From: Alphaproteobacteria bacterium
Lineage (GTDB): Bacteria > Pseudomonadota > Alphaproteobacteria > CAAGCB01 > CAG-977
DNA length: 64,000 nucleotides
Reading direction: 5' to 3'
NCBI GenBank assembly: GCA_017480385.1
Contig: JAFVAT010000007.1
Location: 90,334 to 154,333, forward strand
The notes beneath the pieces were generated by a model. It did no database searches. It saw only the letters and a list, made by a program, of their open reading frames with translations, and was not told the DNA's origin. Made by a program: the position numbers and the translations under genes. Of the stretch, positions 8,145 through 44,149 are shown in pieces. Numbering within the stretch: position 1 is the first letter of the stretch; the number at the start of each line of letters is the position of its first letter.

Positions 8145-8203
8145 TATTTAACGATATATGTTTTTGATATACATCTTTTGATTGTATTTTGGAGGGCTTA
8201 GAA

Positions 8204-8437
8204 ATGAAAGGAAGAAAAATCACAGAGAACAAAACGCGTATTTTAACACCGCGTCAATTTACGGTATTAACTTTTTTAGCGGCAGGATTGCGGAACAAAG
8301 AAATCGCGTACCGTATGGGATTAACGGTTTCTACAGTCAAACAACATATATCCGGCATTATGCTGCGATTGAACGTAAACACAAGGACGGCGGTAGTTCT
8401 CAAAGCTCAAAAACTGGGACTGATCGATCCGGAATAA
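8204..8437 (+). CDS. Stand-alone LuxR/GerE-type HTH protein A
   Basis: This 77-residue protein is essentially only a LuxR-type DNA-binding domain: LTPRQFTVLTFLAAG, then the recognition region NKEIAYRMGLTVSTVKQHIS, then the dimerisation helix. No receiver or ligand domain precedes it. The ATG at 8204 is chosen because GGAGG at 8191-8195 lies 8 bases before it; a TTG further upstream would overlap that site. It is about 60% identical by eye to the product at 43928-44149 and, like it, is followed by the conserved RNA-like element and an envelope gene. It probably regulates transcription; its target is unknown. Confidence 0.88.
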   Translation: MKGRKITENKTRILTPRQFTVLTFLAAGLRNKEIAYRMGLTVSTVKQHISGIMLRLNVNTRTAVVLKAQKLGLIDPE

Positions 8438-8543: not shown

Positions 8544-8796
8544 AGTGTCTTAACGGGCACGGAGCCGTCAGAAAGCTCTTTTACTACCCAGCGCAGATAT
8601 GCATCGTAAACCGATTTACCAATGGCAAAGCTGGAAAATATCCCCGATTTCTGAACAGAGGTCGGGGGCCTTTTGGCGTATGTCCAGAACACGCCCCGTC
8701 ATTATCTCTGAAAGAACGAGGGTGTTTAAAGGTCAAAAGGATCATTTGATACTATATGGTTTTTCTACTCCCCGACCGCCTAACTAAGGCGGTTTT
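8544..8796 (+). ncRNA. Candidate structured RNA element, copy A (leader of autotransporter gene)
   Basis: This non-coding stretch aligns over its whole length with 43541-43779 in reverse. It can fold into an 11-bp hairpin (8642-8652 with 8657-8667, GAAC loop); a closing stem CCUUUUGGC/GUCAAAAGG (8669-8677 with 8732-8740); a hairpin inside that stem (8688-8698 with 8717-8726); and a 3' hairpin CCGCC/GGCGG (8776-8792) followed by UUUUAGUUU. The 5' block around CUUAACGGGC and CCGUCAGAAAGC is also conserved. In copy B the paired bases change together. I do not recognise a known riboswitch. Position suggests a cis-acting leader of the gene at 8823. Confidence 0.68.
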
Positions 8797-8822: not shown

Positions 8823-10801
8823 ATGAAACAATCCAAAACGACAATCAAAGAACTGACGAAACGTTATCGAGCAGTTTTGTTGAAATGTGCGCTGATGAAT
8901 ATGGCGGCATTTACAATCGCTTTTTCCGCAGCCGCGGCTCCGCTTACTGTTGGTTCGGGTCAAAGCGCTGCTCCTGATCCCGATACATATGATTATATCG
9001 AAGTTAACGGCGGAACATTGGCTTTGAAGAATGGAGAATTCAGCACGCTAAGAAACGATCCCTCCTCACTGACCGATGCAGAGATGTCTTTATCCGGCGC
9101 TTCTTTGGATATGAACAGCCCTGAATTTACAATCAGCAATTCTGCTCTGACAATCAATGCCGGCAGTCAAATCTTTAGCAGAGCGGTTATAATCAGTGAG
9201 TCAGAGCTGACTTTAAATTCCGCCAATTCAGAAATGTCCTTTGAAGCGGATTCTTTCACGATTAACGGTTCAACCGTTTCAATGTCCAGCGGCGGTTATG
9301 GACTGGTTTCGTCCTCTGATAACGGAATAAGCATCATAGATCCACTATTACTGCGAACTCGATCCATATTGCATAGATGGACGTACCTATTCTGATCCCG
9401 AACTGAAAATCAGCGGCACATCGGAATTTAATCATGGGAAACATAAAAGTCGATGCCGTTTCCGTAGACGGTGACGATGCTTCTTTCACAAAAGGAAAAA
9501 TCCTTTTTTTCGACGGCACGATTAACTTAAACGGCAGATTGACTGCCGATATAGAATCAACAGGCGGAACATTGGCATTCAGTTCTAATAATGCCGCGTT
9601 GGACGGGACATTGTCCGGTACGGTTAATCTGAAATTTAACGACAACTACGCATTCAGCAATATAAACGCTTCCGATGCAACGTTAGGCACGATCACGATC
9701 GCAGACGGCAAGACGCTGGACATCGGAACAGGCACCTTAACGTCAGGCACTGTCACGGGTGGCATTCTGAAAGCGACTTTGACCGACGCGGCAAATGAAA
9801 GTGCGATTATCACGGCTGAAGCGACGAAAGTGATCTTGAGTCTGGATATGTCGGCGGCTTCCGACGAAGCGGTGACGCTGCATCACATTACGGAAGGCTC
9901 CGGCTTTGCCTTCGGGGATTATGACTTAAACAGTTATGTTGTTTCCGGCGTTTTCTTTGATCTCGACGCTGTCGGAACAATCGGCGCTTTGGAAGGCTGG
10001 ACCGGCGGCGATCTGTATATTCTGCGGTTGGTCACCGTGCCTGCCGAAGAAGAAAATCAAAGCATTGCGGACAAGCTGAAAGACGACGGCGTGGAAATCA
10101 TTGCGAATGAAGAGTTGGCGCTGAATACATTTAACAGCGACATTAAAGAAGTCCTTTCTTCCGAACATAAAGACGCCGTAGAAAAAGTAAGCGCCTTATT
10201 GGAAGACGCCCTGACTGCCGGAGATCAAGGCCGCATAAAACAGATTGTGCGGGAAGTCGCGCCGGACACTTGCTCTTCCGCCTATGAAATGGCCCGATCC
10301 AACGCTGGCGCCGTGATGTCCGTTATCAGCACACGCATGGGCGGAGACTCTCCAATCCCGGCGGCTCGGGAACGTTCTGGCGGCGACTATACGCTTCTGT
10401 CTAAGCACAAGTCACATGCAACAAAGCCAAGCTGCATAAAACCGGCGGCTTCGCTTCCGATTCAGCCGGATTTGCCGCGGGCTTTGAATACAATATCAAC
10501 GATTCTGTCAAAGTCGGCGGCGGTTATGCCTTCACCTTAACCGATATCGACACGGACAGAAGCAAAAGCAGCGGTAACGTATGACTTTGAGCGGGACGGA
10601 CAGAACCGGACGGTCACTTTGGCGAACGGGTCAAGCTATGTGGCGGAAGGCGACAACATGAAACGCTTTGGCATAGAGGCCGGTGCGGGAGTCTCAATGC
10701 TTTTGGGCCGCCATACAGAGCTCGGTCTGTTTTATGAAGGCAAGTTCAAAGACCATTATAAGGATCATACCGGTTTGGTTAATTTGAAATATAACTTCTG
10801 A
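8823..10801 (+). pseudogene. Decayed autotransporter / outer-membrane beta-barrel gene
   Basis: The first 190 codons give a signal peptide (cleavage probably after FSAAAA near residue 39) and a Ser/Thr/Asn-rich passenger-like repeat region. The frame then shifts at about 9345, again near 9378 and near 9432, giving a second open piece to about 10390. Its end (REVAPDTCSSAYEMARSNAG) is typical of the linker before an autotransporter barrel. The barrel start (HKTGGFASDSAGFAAGFEYN) is in another frame after an in-frame stop, and most of the barrel is missing near 10580. The last strand, ending LVNLKYNF, is intact. It is therefore a broken surface protein, unless the frameshifts are sequencing errors. 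Confidence 0.82.
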
Positions 10802-17010: not shown

Positions 17011-17679
17011 ATGGATATTCTAAAAAACCTGCAAACGGTTAACGATCGGATCAAACAAGCGGCAGCGGCTTGTGGACGATCGGAACAAGACATTACTTTG
17101 ACAGCTGTTTCCAAAATGCATGAGGCAGAAGAAATTCTGCCTCTATTGCAGGCGGGGCATCGTGTTTTCGGTGAAAACCGCGTACAGGAAGCAATGCGAA
17201 AGTTTCCGGCCTTAAAAGAACAGTTTCCCGATTTAAAATTGCATTTGATCGGTCCGCTTCAAACAAACAAAGTAAAGGAAGCCGTATCTCTGTTTGACGT
17301 GATTGAATCTGTGGACCGGATTGAACTGGCTGAAAAACTGGCTGCTGAAATGCAAAAACAAGGCAAAAACCTCCCCTGTTTTATTCAAGTCAACACAGGG
17401 GAAGAACCTCAGAAAAGCGGAATTGTTCCACGTGAAACATTTTCTTTGACCAAGCAATGCCGCGACCTGGGATTAAACATCATTGGGCTGATGTGTATTC
17501 CGCCTGTTAATGACGAACCCGCGCCGCATTTTGCTTTTTTGAAAAAACTGGCGCGAGAAGCAAACGTCAAAGAATTGTCCATGGGCATGAGCGACGATTA
17601 CGACTTTGCCGTTCAACAAGGCGCGACTTTTGTCCGTGTCGGTACCGCCCTGTTCGGCGAACGCAATTATTCAAAATAA
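17011..17679 (+). CDS. yggS: YggS-family pyridoxal phosphate homeostasis protein
   Basis: YggS/PLPBP binds pyridoxal 5'-phosphate and keeps its cytoplasmic level and amino-acid pools balanced; it has no known catalytic activity. The 222-residue protein has the PLP-lysine motif LTAVSKMH near residue 32, FGENRVQEA, HLIGPLQTNK and the C-terminal SMGMSDDYDFAVQQGATFVRVGTALFG pattern. It starts 10 bases after the porin gene and ends at a hairpin terminator. A parS-like site lies inside the gene at 17424-17439. Confidence 0.95.
   Translation: MDILKNLQTVNDRIKQAAAACGRSEQDITLTAVSKMHEAEEILPLLQAGHRVFGENRVQEAMRKFPALKEQFPDLKLHLIGPLQTNKVKEAVSLFDVIESVDRIELAEKLAAEMQKQGKNLPCFIQVNTGEEPQKSGIVPRETFSLTKQCRDLGLNIIGLMCIPPVNDEPAPHFAFLKKLAREANVKELSMGMSDDYDFAVQQGATFVRVGTALFGERNYSK
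17424..17439. promoter_or_regulatory. parS site (inside yggS)
   Basis: The 16-base palindrome TGTTCCACGTGAAACA differs at one base from the canonical ParB site TGTTTCACGTGAAACA. It lies within yggS and is about 31 kb from the probable origin. The same one-base variant occurs at 43850. Confidence 0.8.
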
Positions 17680-38137: not shown

Positions 38138-38153
38138 TGTTTCACGTGAAACA
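38138..38153. promoter_or_regulatory. parS site upstream of rsmG
   Basis: TGTTTCACGTGAAACA is a perfect copy of the canonical 16-base ParB binding site, 13 bases upstream of the rsmG start and about 10.5 kb from the probable origin. A ParB complex here could also influence rsmG-parAB transcription. Confidence 0.95.
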
Positions 38154-38243: not shown

Positions 38244-38259
38244 TGTTTCACGTGAAACA
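38244..38259. promoter_or_regulatory. parS site in the rsmG-hslU gap
   Basis: This is a second perfect TGTTTCACGTGAAACA, 106 bases from the first. The rest of the 755-base gap (38126-38880) is very AT-rich, with no gene, tRNA or clear hairpin that I can support, and no canonical DnaA box. Confidence 0.95.
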
Positions 38260-43524: not shown

Positions 43525-43540
43525 AAAAAAAATCCCCCGT

Positions 43541-43779
43541 AAACCGCCTTTCAGCGGCTCGGGAGGTTGAGAAAATCACATAGAACAATGATCCTTTTGA
43601 CCTTTAAAGCAATCCAATGATAAATCGGTGCTTCTGGACATACGTCAAAAGCCCCCCGAACCATCAATAAAGACAGTCGGGGATATTTTCCGTTTTTGCG
43701 ACAGGCAAAACGGATAACGGCGCATCTCTGCACCGGTTCTATGAAGGCTTTCTCACGGCCTCGCGCCCGCTAAGGCACT
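43541..43779 (-). ncRNA. Candidate structured RNA element, copy B (leader of acyltransferase gene)
   Basis: This is the reverse-strand counterpart of 8544-8796. It forms the same stems with changed sequence: hairpin 43682-43672 with 43665-43654; closing stem CUUUUGAC/GUCAAAAG (43651-43644 with 43601-43594); inner hairpin AAGCACCGAU with AUUGGAUUGCUU (43633-43624 with 43618-43607), which shares almost no bases with copy A yet still pairs. The 5' block CUUAGCGGGC and CCGUGAGAAAGC is conserved. The 3' hairpin lies next to the GGGGG ribosome site of the acyltransferase gene. The class is unknown to me. Confidence 0.68.
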
Positions 43780-43849
43780 TTATTGACGACCCCATGTCAT
43801 CAATACAAAATCAGAATACAGGGAAAACAAGTTCCGTTCAAAAGAAAAA

Positions 43850-43865
43850 TGTTCCACGTGAAACA
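43850..43865. promoter_or_regulatory. parS site between HTH gene B and RNA element B
   Basis: TGTTCCACGTGAAACA is the same one-base variant of the ParB site as in yggS. It lies about 5 kb from the probable origin, the closest of the four sites. Confidence 0.85.
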
Positions 43866-43927: not shown

Positions 43928-44149
43928 TTAAATCAGTCCCAATTTCTGTGCTTTGACAACCGCCGCCGTCCGCGTTTTGACATTTAACCGCAACAAAATA
44001 CCGGAAACATGCAGTTTAACCGTTGAAACAGACAAATTCATTGCTTGAGCAATTTGTTTATTAAGCAGTCCCTTTGCCAGATATTTCAACACCTCTTTTT
44101 GTTTAAAGGTCAGATGAAAGCTGTTTTCAAATATTTTTTTGCTGCTCAT
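43928..44149 (-). CDS. Stand-alone LuxR/GerE-type HTH protein B
   Basis: This 73-residue protein consists of a LuxR-type DNA-binding domain alone: LTFKQKEVLKYLAKG, NKQIAQAMNLSVSTVKLHVS and the end shared with protein A (LNVKTRTAAVVKAQKLGLI). GGAGG lies 8 bases before the ATG. No sensor domain is encoded next to it. It precedes RNA element B and the acyltransferase gene on the same strand, repeating the order of islet A, and is divergent from the PEGA genes. It probably acts as a transcription regulator by homodimer; signal and target are unknown. Confidence 0.88.
   Translation of the reverse strand: MSSKKIFENSFHLTFKQKEVLKYLAKGLLNKQIAQAMNLSVSTVKLHVSGILLRLNVKTRTAAVVKAQKLGLI

Follow-up and report, generated by a model that had tools for sequence, protein, structure and literature searches.

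The elements A and B of the 64,000-nucleotide stretch of DNA analysed here (the window) are members of one RNA family, copy A lying at 8560-8774 on the plus strand and copy B at 43560-43763 on the minus strand. They represent a pseudoknotted structured RNA that occurs across Alphaproteobacteria and in some Acidobacteria and that is undescribed relative to Rfam 15 and the open literature we searched. The reading that we consider best is that of an orphan cis-acting, riboswitch-like expression switch. We regard this as likely (probability of about 0.7), with both the ligand and the switching being inferred in the absence of expression or transcript data.

Identity and distribution of the RNA family

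Scanning the window against Rfam 15 produced no gathering-level match. The scan of 20 class-level homologue loci returned tRNAs only, and that of 15 further loci gave no gathering-level match over the element; apart from tRNAs, the only match in these 35 loci was a single ar15 located approximately 6 kb from the element. With a permissive threshold, element B showed two chance matches of 10-11 bits (best 11.4, gathering threshold 42). No description of the family was found in the open literature searched, a search that did not cover subscription papers and preprints. The RNA resembles the candidates of earlier surveys (PMC2864571, PMC8632094, PMC11109978) in being an orphan leader RNA defined by covariation, but no fitting candidate was found among them: none of the Rfam models matches, and searching PMC8632094 and PMC11109978 by term returned nothing.

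To define the family we used two covariance models. Model R1 was trained on 13 copies from the window's own genus, which include B (L024) and A (L003), and gave 212 bits for B and 143 bits for A. For model R2 we used 21 compact sequences, none of them from the window's own taxonomic family; it recovered both elements, B with 46 bits (E 2.8e-9; span 43557-43781, minus strand) and A with 37 bits (E 3.4e-7; span 8548-8777). Because R2 contains no own-family sequences, this is independent proof of membership. By BLASTN, three copies were found in the window's own genome and copies were present in the 7 genomes of the genus (7/7). A further own-genome copy outside the window (G000:C40:178604-178814, minus strand) was found by R2 alone. 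R1 detected 43 copies within the genus. Over the taxonomic family it detected 67, spread over 11 of the 12 genomes, which are the entire order in the genome collection; copy numbers ranged from none (G010) to 14 (G003). At the class level, R1 matched 26/385 genomes, many with a compact core of approximately 150 nt, and R2 matched 49/385 alphaproteobacterial genomes belonging to 40 of 276 genera. In a phylum sample R2 matched 22/398 genomes, five of them outside the class.

An exact-pattern scan of 84,980 genomes found at least 119 stretches, in organisms such as Rhizobium, Shinella, Devosia, Methylobacterium, Sphingobium, Roseovarius and Acidocella, and in the Acidobacteria Terriglobus and Granulicella; the model did not confirm a match in Albitalea. 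When one compact element was searched by BLASTN, 385 plasmid records were hit, 218 of them from Agrobacterium and including Ti plasmids. A phage element as the main nature of the RNA was rejected, as only two short phage records match. The Agrobacterium vitis genome carries ten copies, seven of them chromosomal and mostly before the same small protein. These chromosomal copies (L395-L401) mostly precede paralogous small membrane proteins (MADYNVWADLFDTWQ...) of no known function and without a Pfam match.

Architecture and covariation

The RNA begins with hairpin P0, followed by hairpin P1; PK1 joins the P1 loop to the strand that immediately precedes CUCCCCG. P2 forms between the loop of P8 and the strand that follows P1, and further helices are P3, P4 (in the own taxonomic family), P5, P6 and P7. 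The internal loop of P6, GUAUGUCCAGG / CUAAAGG, is invariant. P9 is formed by GGUCGGGGAG and CUCCCCGAUC. Helices P5 and P9 compete for one strand, UCGGGGAG. The positions of these features in the window are given in Table 1.

Table 1. Coordinates of the features of copies A and B and of neighbouring genes in the window
Feature	Coordinates	Strand	Basis or remark
A, hairpin P0	8545-8560	+	sequence
A, RNA core	8560-8774	+	203/203 model positions, 143 bits
A, PK1 5' strand AGAAA	8570-8574	+	pairs with TTTCT 8762-8766
A, alternative P5, CCCCGA strand	8642-8647	+	pairs with TCGGGG
A, P9 5' strand GGTCGGGGG	8660-8668	+	pairs with TCCCCGACC 8769-8777
A, stem P6	8669-8740	+	conserved GTATGTCCAGAA 8678-8689, hairpin P7 8688-8726
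A, 3' hairpin CCGCCTAACTAAGGCGG	8776-8792	+	sequence
A, gene behind, 190-aa ORF	8823-9395	+	start MKQSKTTIKELT matches proteins behind other copies
A, LuxR-type HTH gene	8189-8437	+	beside A
B, -35-like TTGAAC	43836-43841	-	sequence; 17 nt from -10
B, -10-like TATTCT	43813-43818	-	sequence; -10 peak across RNA family
B, 5' hairpin P-1 TTGATGAC...GTCGTCAA	43783-43803	-	by eye; variable sequence in own taxonomic family
B, hairpin P0	43763-43778	-	covaries in 101-sequence alignment
B, RNA core	43560-43763	-	212 bits, model matched over its full length (203/203)
B, hairpin P1 (AGGC/GCCT)	43745-43761	-	loop TGAGAAA 43755-43749 is PK1 5' side
B, PK1 3' strand TTTCTCA	43568-43574	-	pairs with 43755-43749
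B, P2 5' strand CATAGAAC	43736-43743	-	pairs with GTTCTATG 43586-43579, in P8 loop (P8 43592-43575)
B, hairpin P3	43718-43735	-	model match, sequence
B, hairpin P4	43690-43713	-	model match, sequence
B, hairpin P5 CCCCGA/UCGGGG	43654-43682	-	43682-43677 with 43659-43654; 3' strand common to P9
B, P9 5' strand GGTTCGGGGGG	43652-43662	-	pairs with CCTCCCGAGCC 43566-43556
B, stem P6 CTTTTGAC/GTCAAAAG	43594-43651	-	conserved GTATGTCCAGAA 43643-43632, inner hairpin P7
B, putative competing terminator/sequestor CCTCCCGAGCCGC..GGCGGTTTACGGGGGA + T8	43525-43566	-	sequence, fold; family statistics
B, gene behind, membrane acyltransferase, 486 aa	42064-43524	-	Acyl_transf_3 PF01757, E 1.3e-22
B, LuxR-type HTH gene	43928-44149	-	beside B

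We analysed covariation in an R2-based alignment of 101 sequences. In it 93.6% of the cells are paired, 51 of 54 pairs show double changes (1,419 double-change cells vs 388 in shuffles), and the covariation score is 0.671 vs at most 0.083 with slid partners. The helices of the R2 structure, to which this alignment was fitted, are favoured by that fit; P1, P8 and P9 were not among them. P9, though outside the fitted structure, had 91.9% of its cells paired and double changes in 8 of its 10 pairs, and within the own taxonomic family its outer pairs fitted the strand of the same copy better than swapped-in strands in each of 2,000 trials. PK1 had 98.8% of its cells paired, with double changes present, and P0 and P2 covary as well. 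In the 21 compact sequences none of 500 shuffles reached any covariation measure; P1 and PK1 were paired in all 21, and one position of PK1 showed three types of pair. P5 is paired in 84.9% of the cells, often by G-U, and opposite GGGG the bases remain C or U. A MAFFT-only covariation scan misaligned P4 between subsets and subset models were used. Altogether, these results show a structured RNA of this strand with nested pseudoknots. A further pairing of the P3 loop with the strand before P5 (PK3) was seen by eye only and is not claimed, and kissing of the P0 loop with the loop of the 3' hairpin (GUACGC/GCGUAC; UUAGCGG/CCGCUGA) was discarded as an eye-read pairing that is inconsistent across copies.

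The strand-specific signal bears on whether the element works at the DNA level; in that case mobile elements would use it for attachment or recombination, and its RNA-like fold would be incidental. Speaking for this is a shared junction, CTCCCCGAT or CTCTCCGAT and then ATGG..., that stands behind three different RNA copies, two from G003 and one from G001, and is followed in G001 by a serine recombinase (PF00239); in addition, copies often lie at contig ends and many are on plasmids. Against it, G-U cells number 407 vs 49 A.C mismatches, which means selection on the RNA of the stated strand, and the promoter and start-codon spacing argues likewise. We thus hold the DNA-level explanation to be very unlikely. 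The shared junction at the RNA 3' strand may itself be a recombination or integration junction; past CTCCCCGAT or CTCTCCGAT, the three copies (L035/L124, L051/L129 and L044/L142) have the same downstream sequence (ATGGTTTTAAAGCG...), with contig breaks in G003.

The first-pass annotation had described A and B as two copies sharing stems, and this observation held, all the strings that it gave being found where it placed them. A stem maintained by a G-U to A-U change was confirmed: CCTTTTGGC (8669-8677) pairs with GTCAAAAGG (8732-8740) by G-U in A, and CTTTTGAC (43651-43644) with GTCAAAAG (43601-43594) by A-U in B. The same is true of an inner hairpin with different bases in each copy (AACAC 8688-8692/GTGTT 8722-8726 in A, AAGCACCGAT/ATTGGATTGCTT in B), and of the conserved block GTATGTCCAGAA at 8678 (+) and 43632 (-), which has 2 matches at up to 1 mismatch vs a shuffle mean of 0.19. 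Its claim of selection on RNA structure is supported by strong covariation in many more homologues, and neither outcome named as refuting it, an Rfam match to a known class (in the window and the homologue loci) or a lack of covariation in more homologues, occurred. Other claims needed correction. The CCCCGA/UCGGGG hairpin, said to keep its base and change its upper part, is nearly invariant in the own taxonomic family, and its 3' strand also forms the covarying long-range helix P9 with CUCCCCGA. AGAAAGC, listed as single-stranded, is partially the loop strand of a pseudoknot. The extent of A, given as 8544-8796, was adjusted to approximately 8545-8792 and that of B to 43778-43525, with promoter-like boxes upstream. 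Copy A, moreover, is a degenerate one in which P2 is unpaired and P3 and PK1 are partly mismatched. The pseudoknots, the P5/P9 conflict, the position in a gene leader and the breadth of the RNA family had been overlooked.

Leader position and downstream genes

Across the family, the positions of promoter-like -35 and -10 boxes form peaks that lie a constant distance upstream of P0, from which we infer, without transcript data, that the RNA would begin at this hairpin. A same-strand ORF lies behind 264 of 277 copies, its start (assigned by rule) at a median of 57 nt downstream of the conserved CUCCCCG strand. The element thus meets the position of a leader, being on the same strand and 5' of the ORF with promoter-like boxes upstream. 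These data argue against an independent ncRNA, either trans-acting or structural, that would have a promoter and terminator of its own and lie before genes by chance. In favour of such an ncRNA are the promoter-like boxes, a terminator-like end in many own-family copies and a few copies without a near downstream ORF; against it, besides the same-strand ORF shortly behind nearly all copies, are the matching of the 3' strand to the ribosome-binding site of the downstream gene (see below) and the fact that own-family copies precede unrelated genes. We find this explanation unlikely.

According to Pfam, the proteins encoded downstream include DNA modification enzymes (EcoRI-type and other DNA methylases, type ISP enzyme), surface proteins (autotransporters, pilin-like proteins and beta-barrel outer-membrane proteins), envelope enzymes (glycosyltransferases, acyltransferases and polysaccharide enzymes) and regulators (TraM, RovC-like, XRE and AraC). 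The theme of the targets is surface, DNA modification (restriction-modification) and mobile-element control; no recurrent metabolic pathway was found among the downstream proteins by Pfam. A guess of the ligand from the target genes was rejected, the targets falling into about 186 groups. Annotated traM leaders on pTi and related plasmids contain a complete copy of the element (L319 on NZ_CP048521.1, L320 and L323), and it is also present in the leader of an annotated XRE regulator on a Rhizobium plasmid. TraM is a quorum-sensing antiactivator, the brake on quorum sensing in the conjugation of Ti plasmids. The traM leader is not mentioned in the main text of an Agrobacterium RNA-seq survey (PMC3738593), and no RNA control of traM was found in the literature searched.

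In the window, the start MKQSKTTIKELT of the 190-aa gene behind A matches autotransporter-type proteins of 878-1013 aa behind other copies. This gene is likely truncated, and copy A and its gene may both be decayed; a second ORF of 368 aa (9434-10540) follows in another frame. Directly upstream, A and B each have a gene for a small stand-alone LuxR-type HTH protein (82 aa and 73 aa, respectively) with GerE as its only domain. As a partner of the RNA the LuxR-type gene was rejected, since it occurs beside A and B only and is not general. The window also holds four perfect parS-like sites (TGTTYCACGTGAAACA; 17424-17439, 38138-38153, 38244-38259 and 43850-43865), one of them directly upstream of element B, with a chance expectation of 0.06 matches with 2 mismatches; the window is therefore probably near the chromosome origin.

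Position right after a promoter, covarying structure and surface-polysaccharide and accessory operons downstream would also suit a processive antiterminator, which, like put of phage HK022 or EAR of the Bacillus eps operon, would alter RNA polymerase for long or foreign operons. Like these, the new RNA is a structured leader before surface or accessory genes. It differs from them in its structure, in its short monocistronic targets (many are single short genes, such as TraM of 102 aa and RovC-like proteins of about 100 aa) and in its pairing with the ribosome-binding site, which would not be expected of an antiterminator. This alternative is unlikely. HEARO/omega RNAs are likewise large structured RNAs directly upstream of ORFs, with many copies and a mobile context, but membership is not met because no IscB/IsrB-type gene was present among the downstream proteins scanned and no Rfam match was obtained.

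The proposed expression switch

The preferred reading, a cis-acting switch, rests on two features. One is that UCGGGGAG pairs back to CCUUGA/CCCCGA (P5) or forward to CUCCCCGA (P9), and these pairings are mutually exclusive. The other is that the 3' strand of P9/PK1 is complementary to the ribosome-binding site of the downstream gene. In the predicted folds, pairing of this 3' strand with the 20 nt that precede the start was seen for 35/41 own-family and 73/100 other copies; the mean number of pairs was 7.22 vs 5.99 (sd 0.34) and 5.40 vs 4.12 (sd 0.27), respectively, against swapped partners. An initial pairing test was discarded because it was inflated by overlapping segments and base composition; the tests reported here used row/column correction with reversed and swapped controls. 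Duplex energies gave a z of -9.0 for 144 pairs vs -3.4 and -4.2 for the reversed controls, and of -3.2 for 43 strictly different pairs vs -2.1 and -3.0. In the fold test with strict redundancy removal, the CUCCCCG part had 3.50 vs 2.83 pairs, above 200/200 swaps, and the PK1 part 2.00 vs 1.54, not above all swaps. The statistic weakens after redundancy removal because the copies are related. Notable single cases are ACUCCCCGAU with AUCGGGGAGU (G561), GUUCAAUC with GAUUGAAC (G002) and UCUAACUUCC with GGAGUUAGA (G198); the strands that face each other are CUAACCC and GGGUUAG on Ti plasmids, and CCAACC and GGUUGG on pAtCFBP5499b. In B, sequence and fold indicate that the 3' strand forms the stem CCUCCCGAGCCGC..GGCGGUUUACGGGGGA, after which come U8 and the start codon. 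From this we infer a structure shaped like an intrinsic terminator, in which the ribosome-binding site is buried as well; this site is likely the GGGGGA arm of the terminator itself.

In the proposed mechanism, P9 and PK1 would retain the 3' strand within the core in the ON state, so that the ribosome-binding site would be accessible and, in B-like copies, the terminator could not form. In the OFF state P5 would form and the released 3' strand would pair with the ribosome-binding site and, in B, also complete the U8 terminator. The putative sensor is the pseudoknotted domain of P1/PK1, P2/P8, P3 and P6/P7 with the invariant GUAUGUCCAGG...CUAAAGG, and the sensed signal, a small molecule or a protein, would bias P9/PK1 against P5 and the sequestor/terminator. 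Two caveats apply: P5 may be a permanent short hairpin and not an alternative, and targets so diverse point to no ligand. With riboswitches in general the RNA shares a covarying 5'-leader domain and, as far as predicted pairing goes, mutually exclusive helices that would be linked to a sequestered ribosome-binding site or terminator; unlike them, it has no ligand, binding or switching data, and its targets are too diverse.

It is possible that the leader responds to a protein instead, with the ribosome or a conserved RNA-binding protein, and not a small molecule, running the P5/P9 switch. The lack of a common metabolic theme among the targets, as with global RNA-binding regulators, and a ProQ/FinO-family gene just upstream of traM on pTi1D1609 favour this. 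Against it, the large and deeply conserved internal loops and stacked pseudoknots exceed the needs of most protein sites, and the neighbourhoods of the copies have no dedicated partner gene in common.

For the riboswitch-like reading, the diversity of the gene set, from adhesins to AraC regulators, suggests a general signal and not a single metabolic pathway. The c-di-GMP-I (GEMM) riboswitch occurs in many copies per genome before adhesin, pilin and other surface genes. The new RNA resembles it in having many copies before surface genes and no common metabolic pathway, but is much larger, has another pseudoknotted architecture and has no ligand shown; GEMM membership is not met, as no gathering-level Rfam match was obtained over the element, either in the window or in the homologue loci. 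A bolder reading, to which we give clearly less than even odds, is that this is an overlooked widespread riboswitch class for a global signal (a second messenger, an alarmone or an ion) that spread with its promoter by duplication and horizontal transfer and would place surface, restriction-modification and conjugation (traM) genes under one RNA-level control in many Alphaproteobacteria and some Acidobacteria.

The RNA is strongly supported and common, in 49/385 sampled alphaproteobacterial genomes and 385 plasmid records, has interlocking pseudoknots and is absent from the catalogues. Its presence in the traM leader places it in the classic quorum-sensing system of the Ti plasmid. As it marks a set of surface and DNA-modification genes across genomes, one search for its ligand or partner could reveal a global signal.
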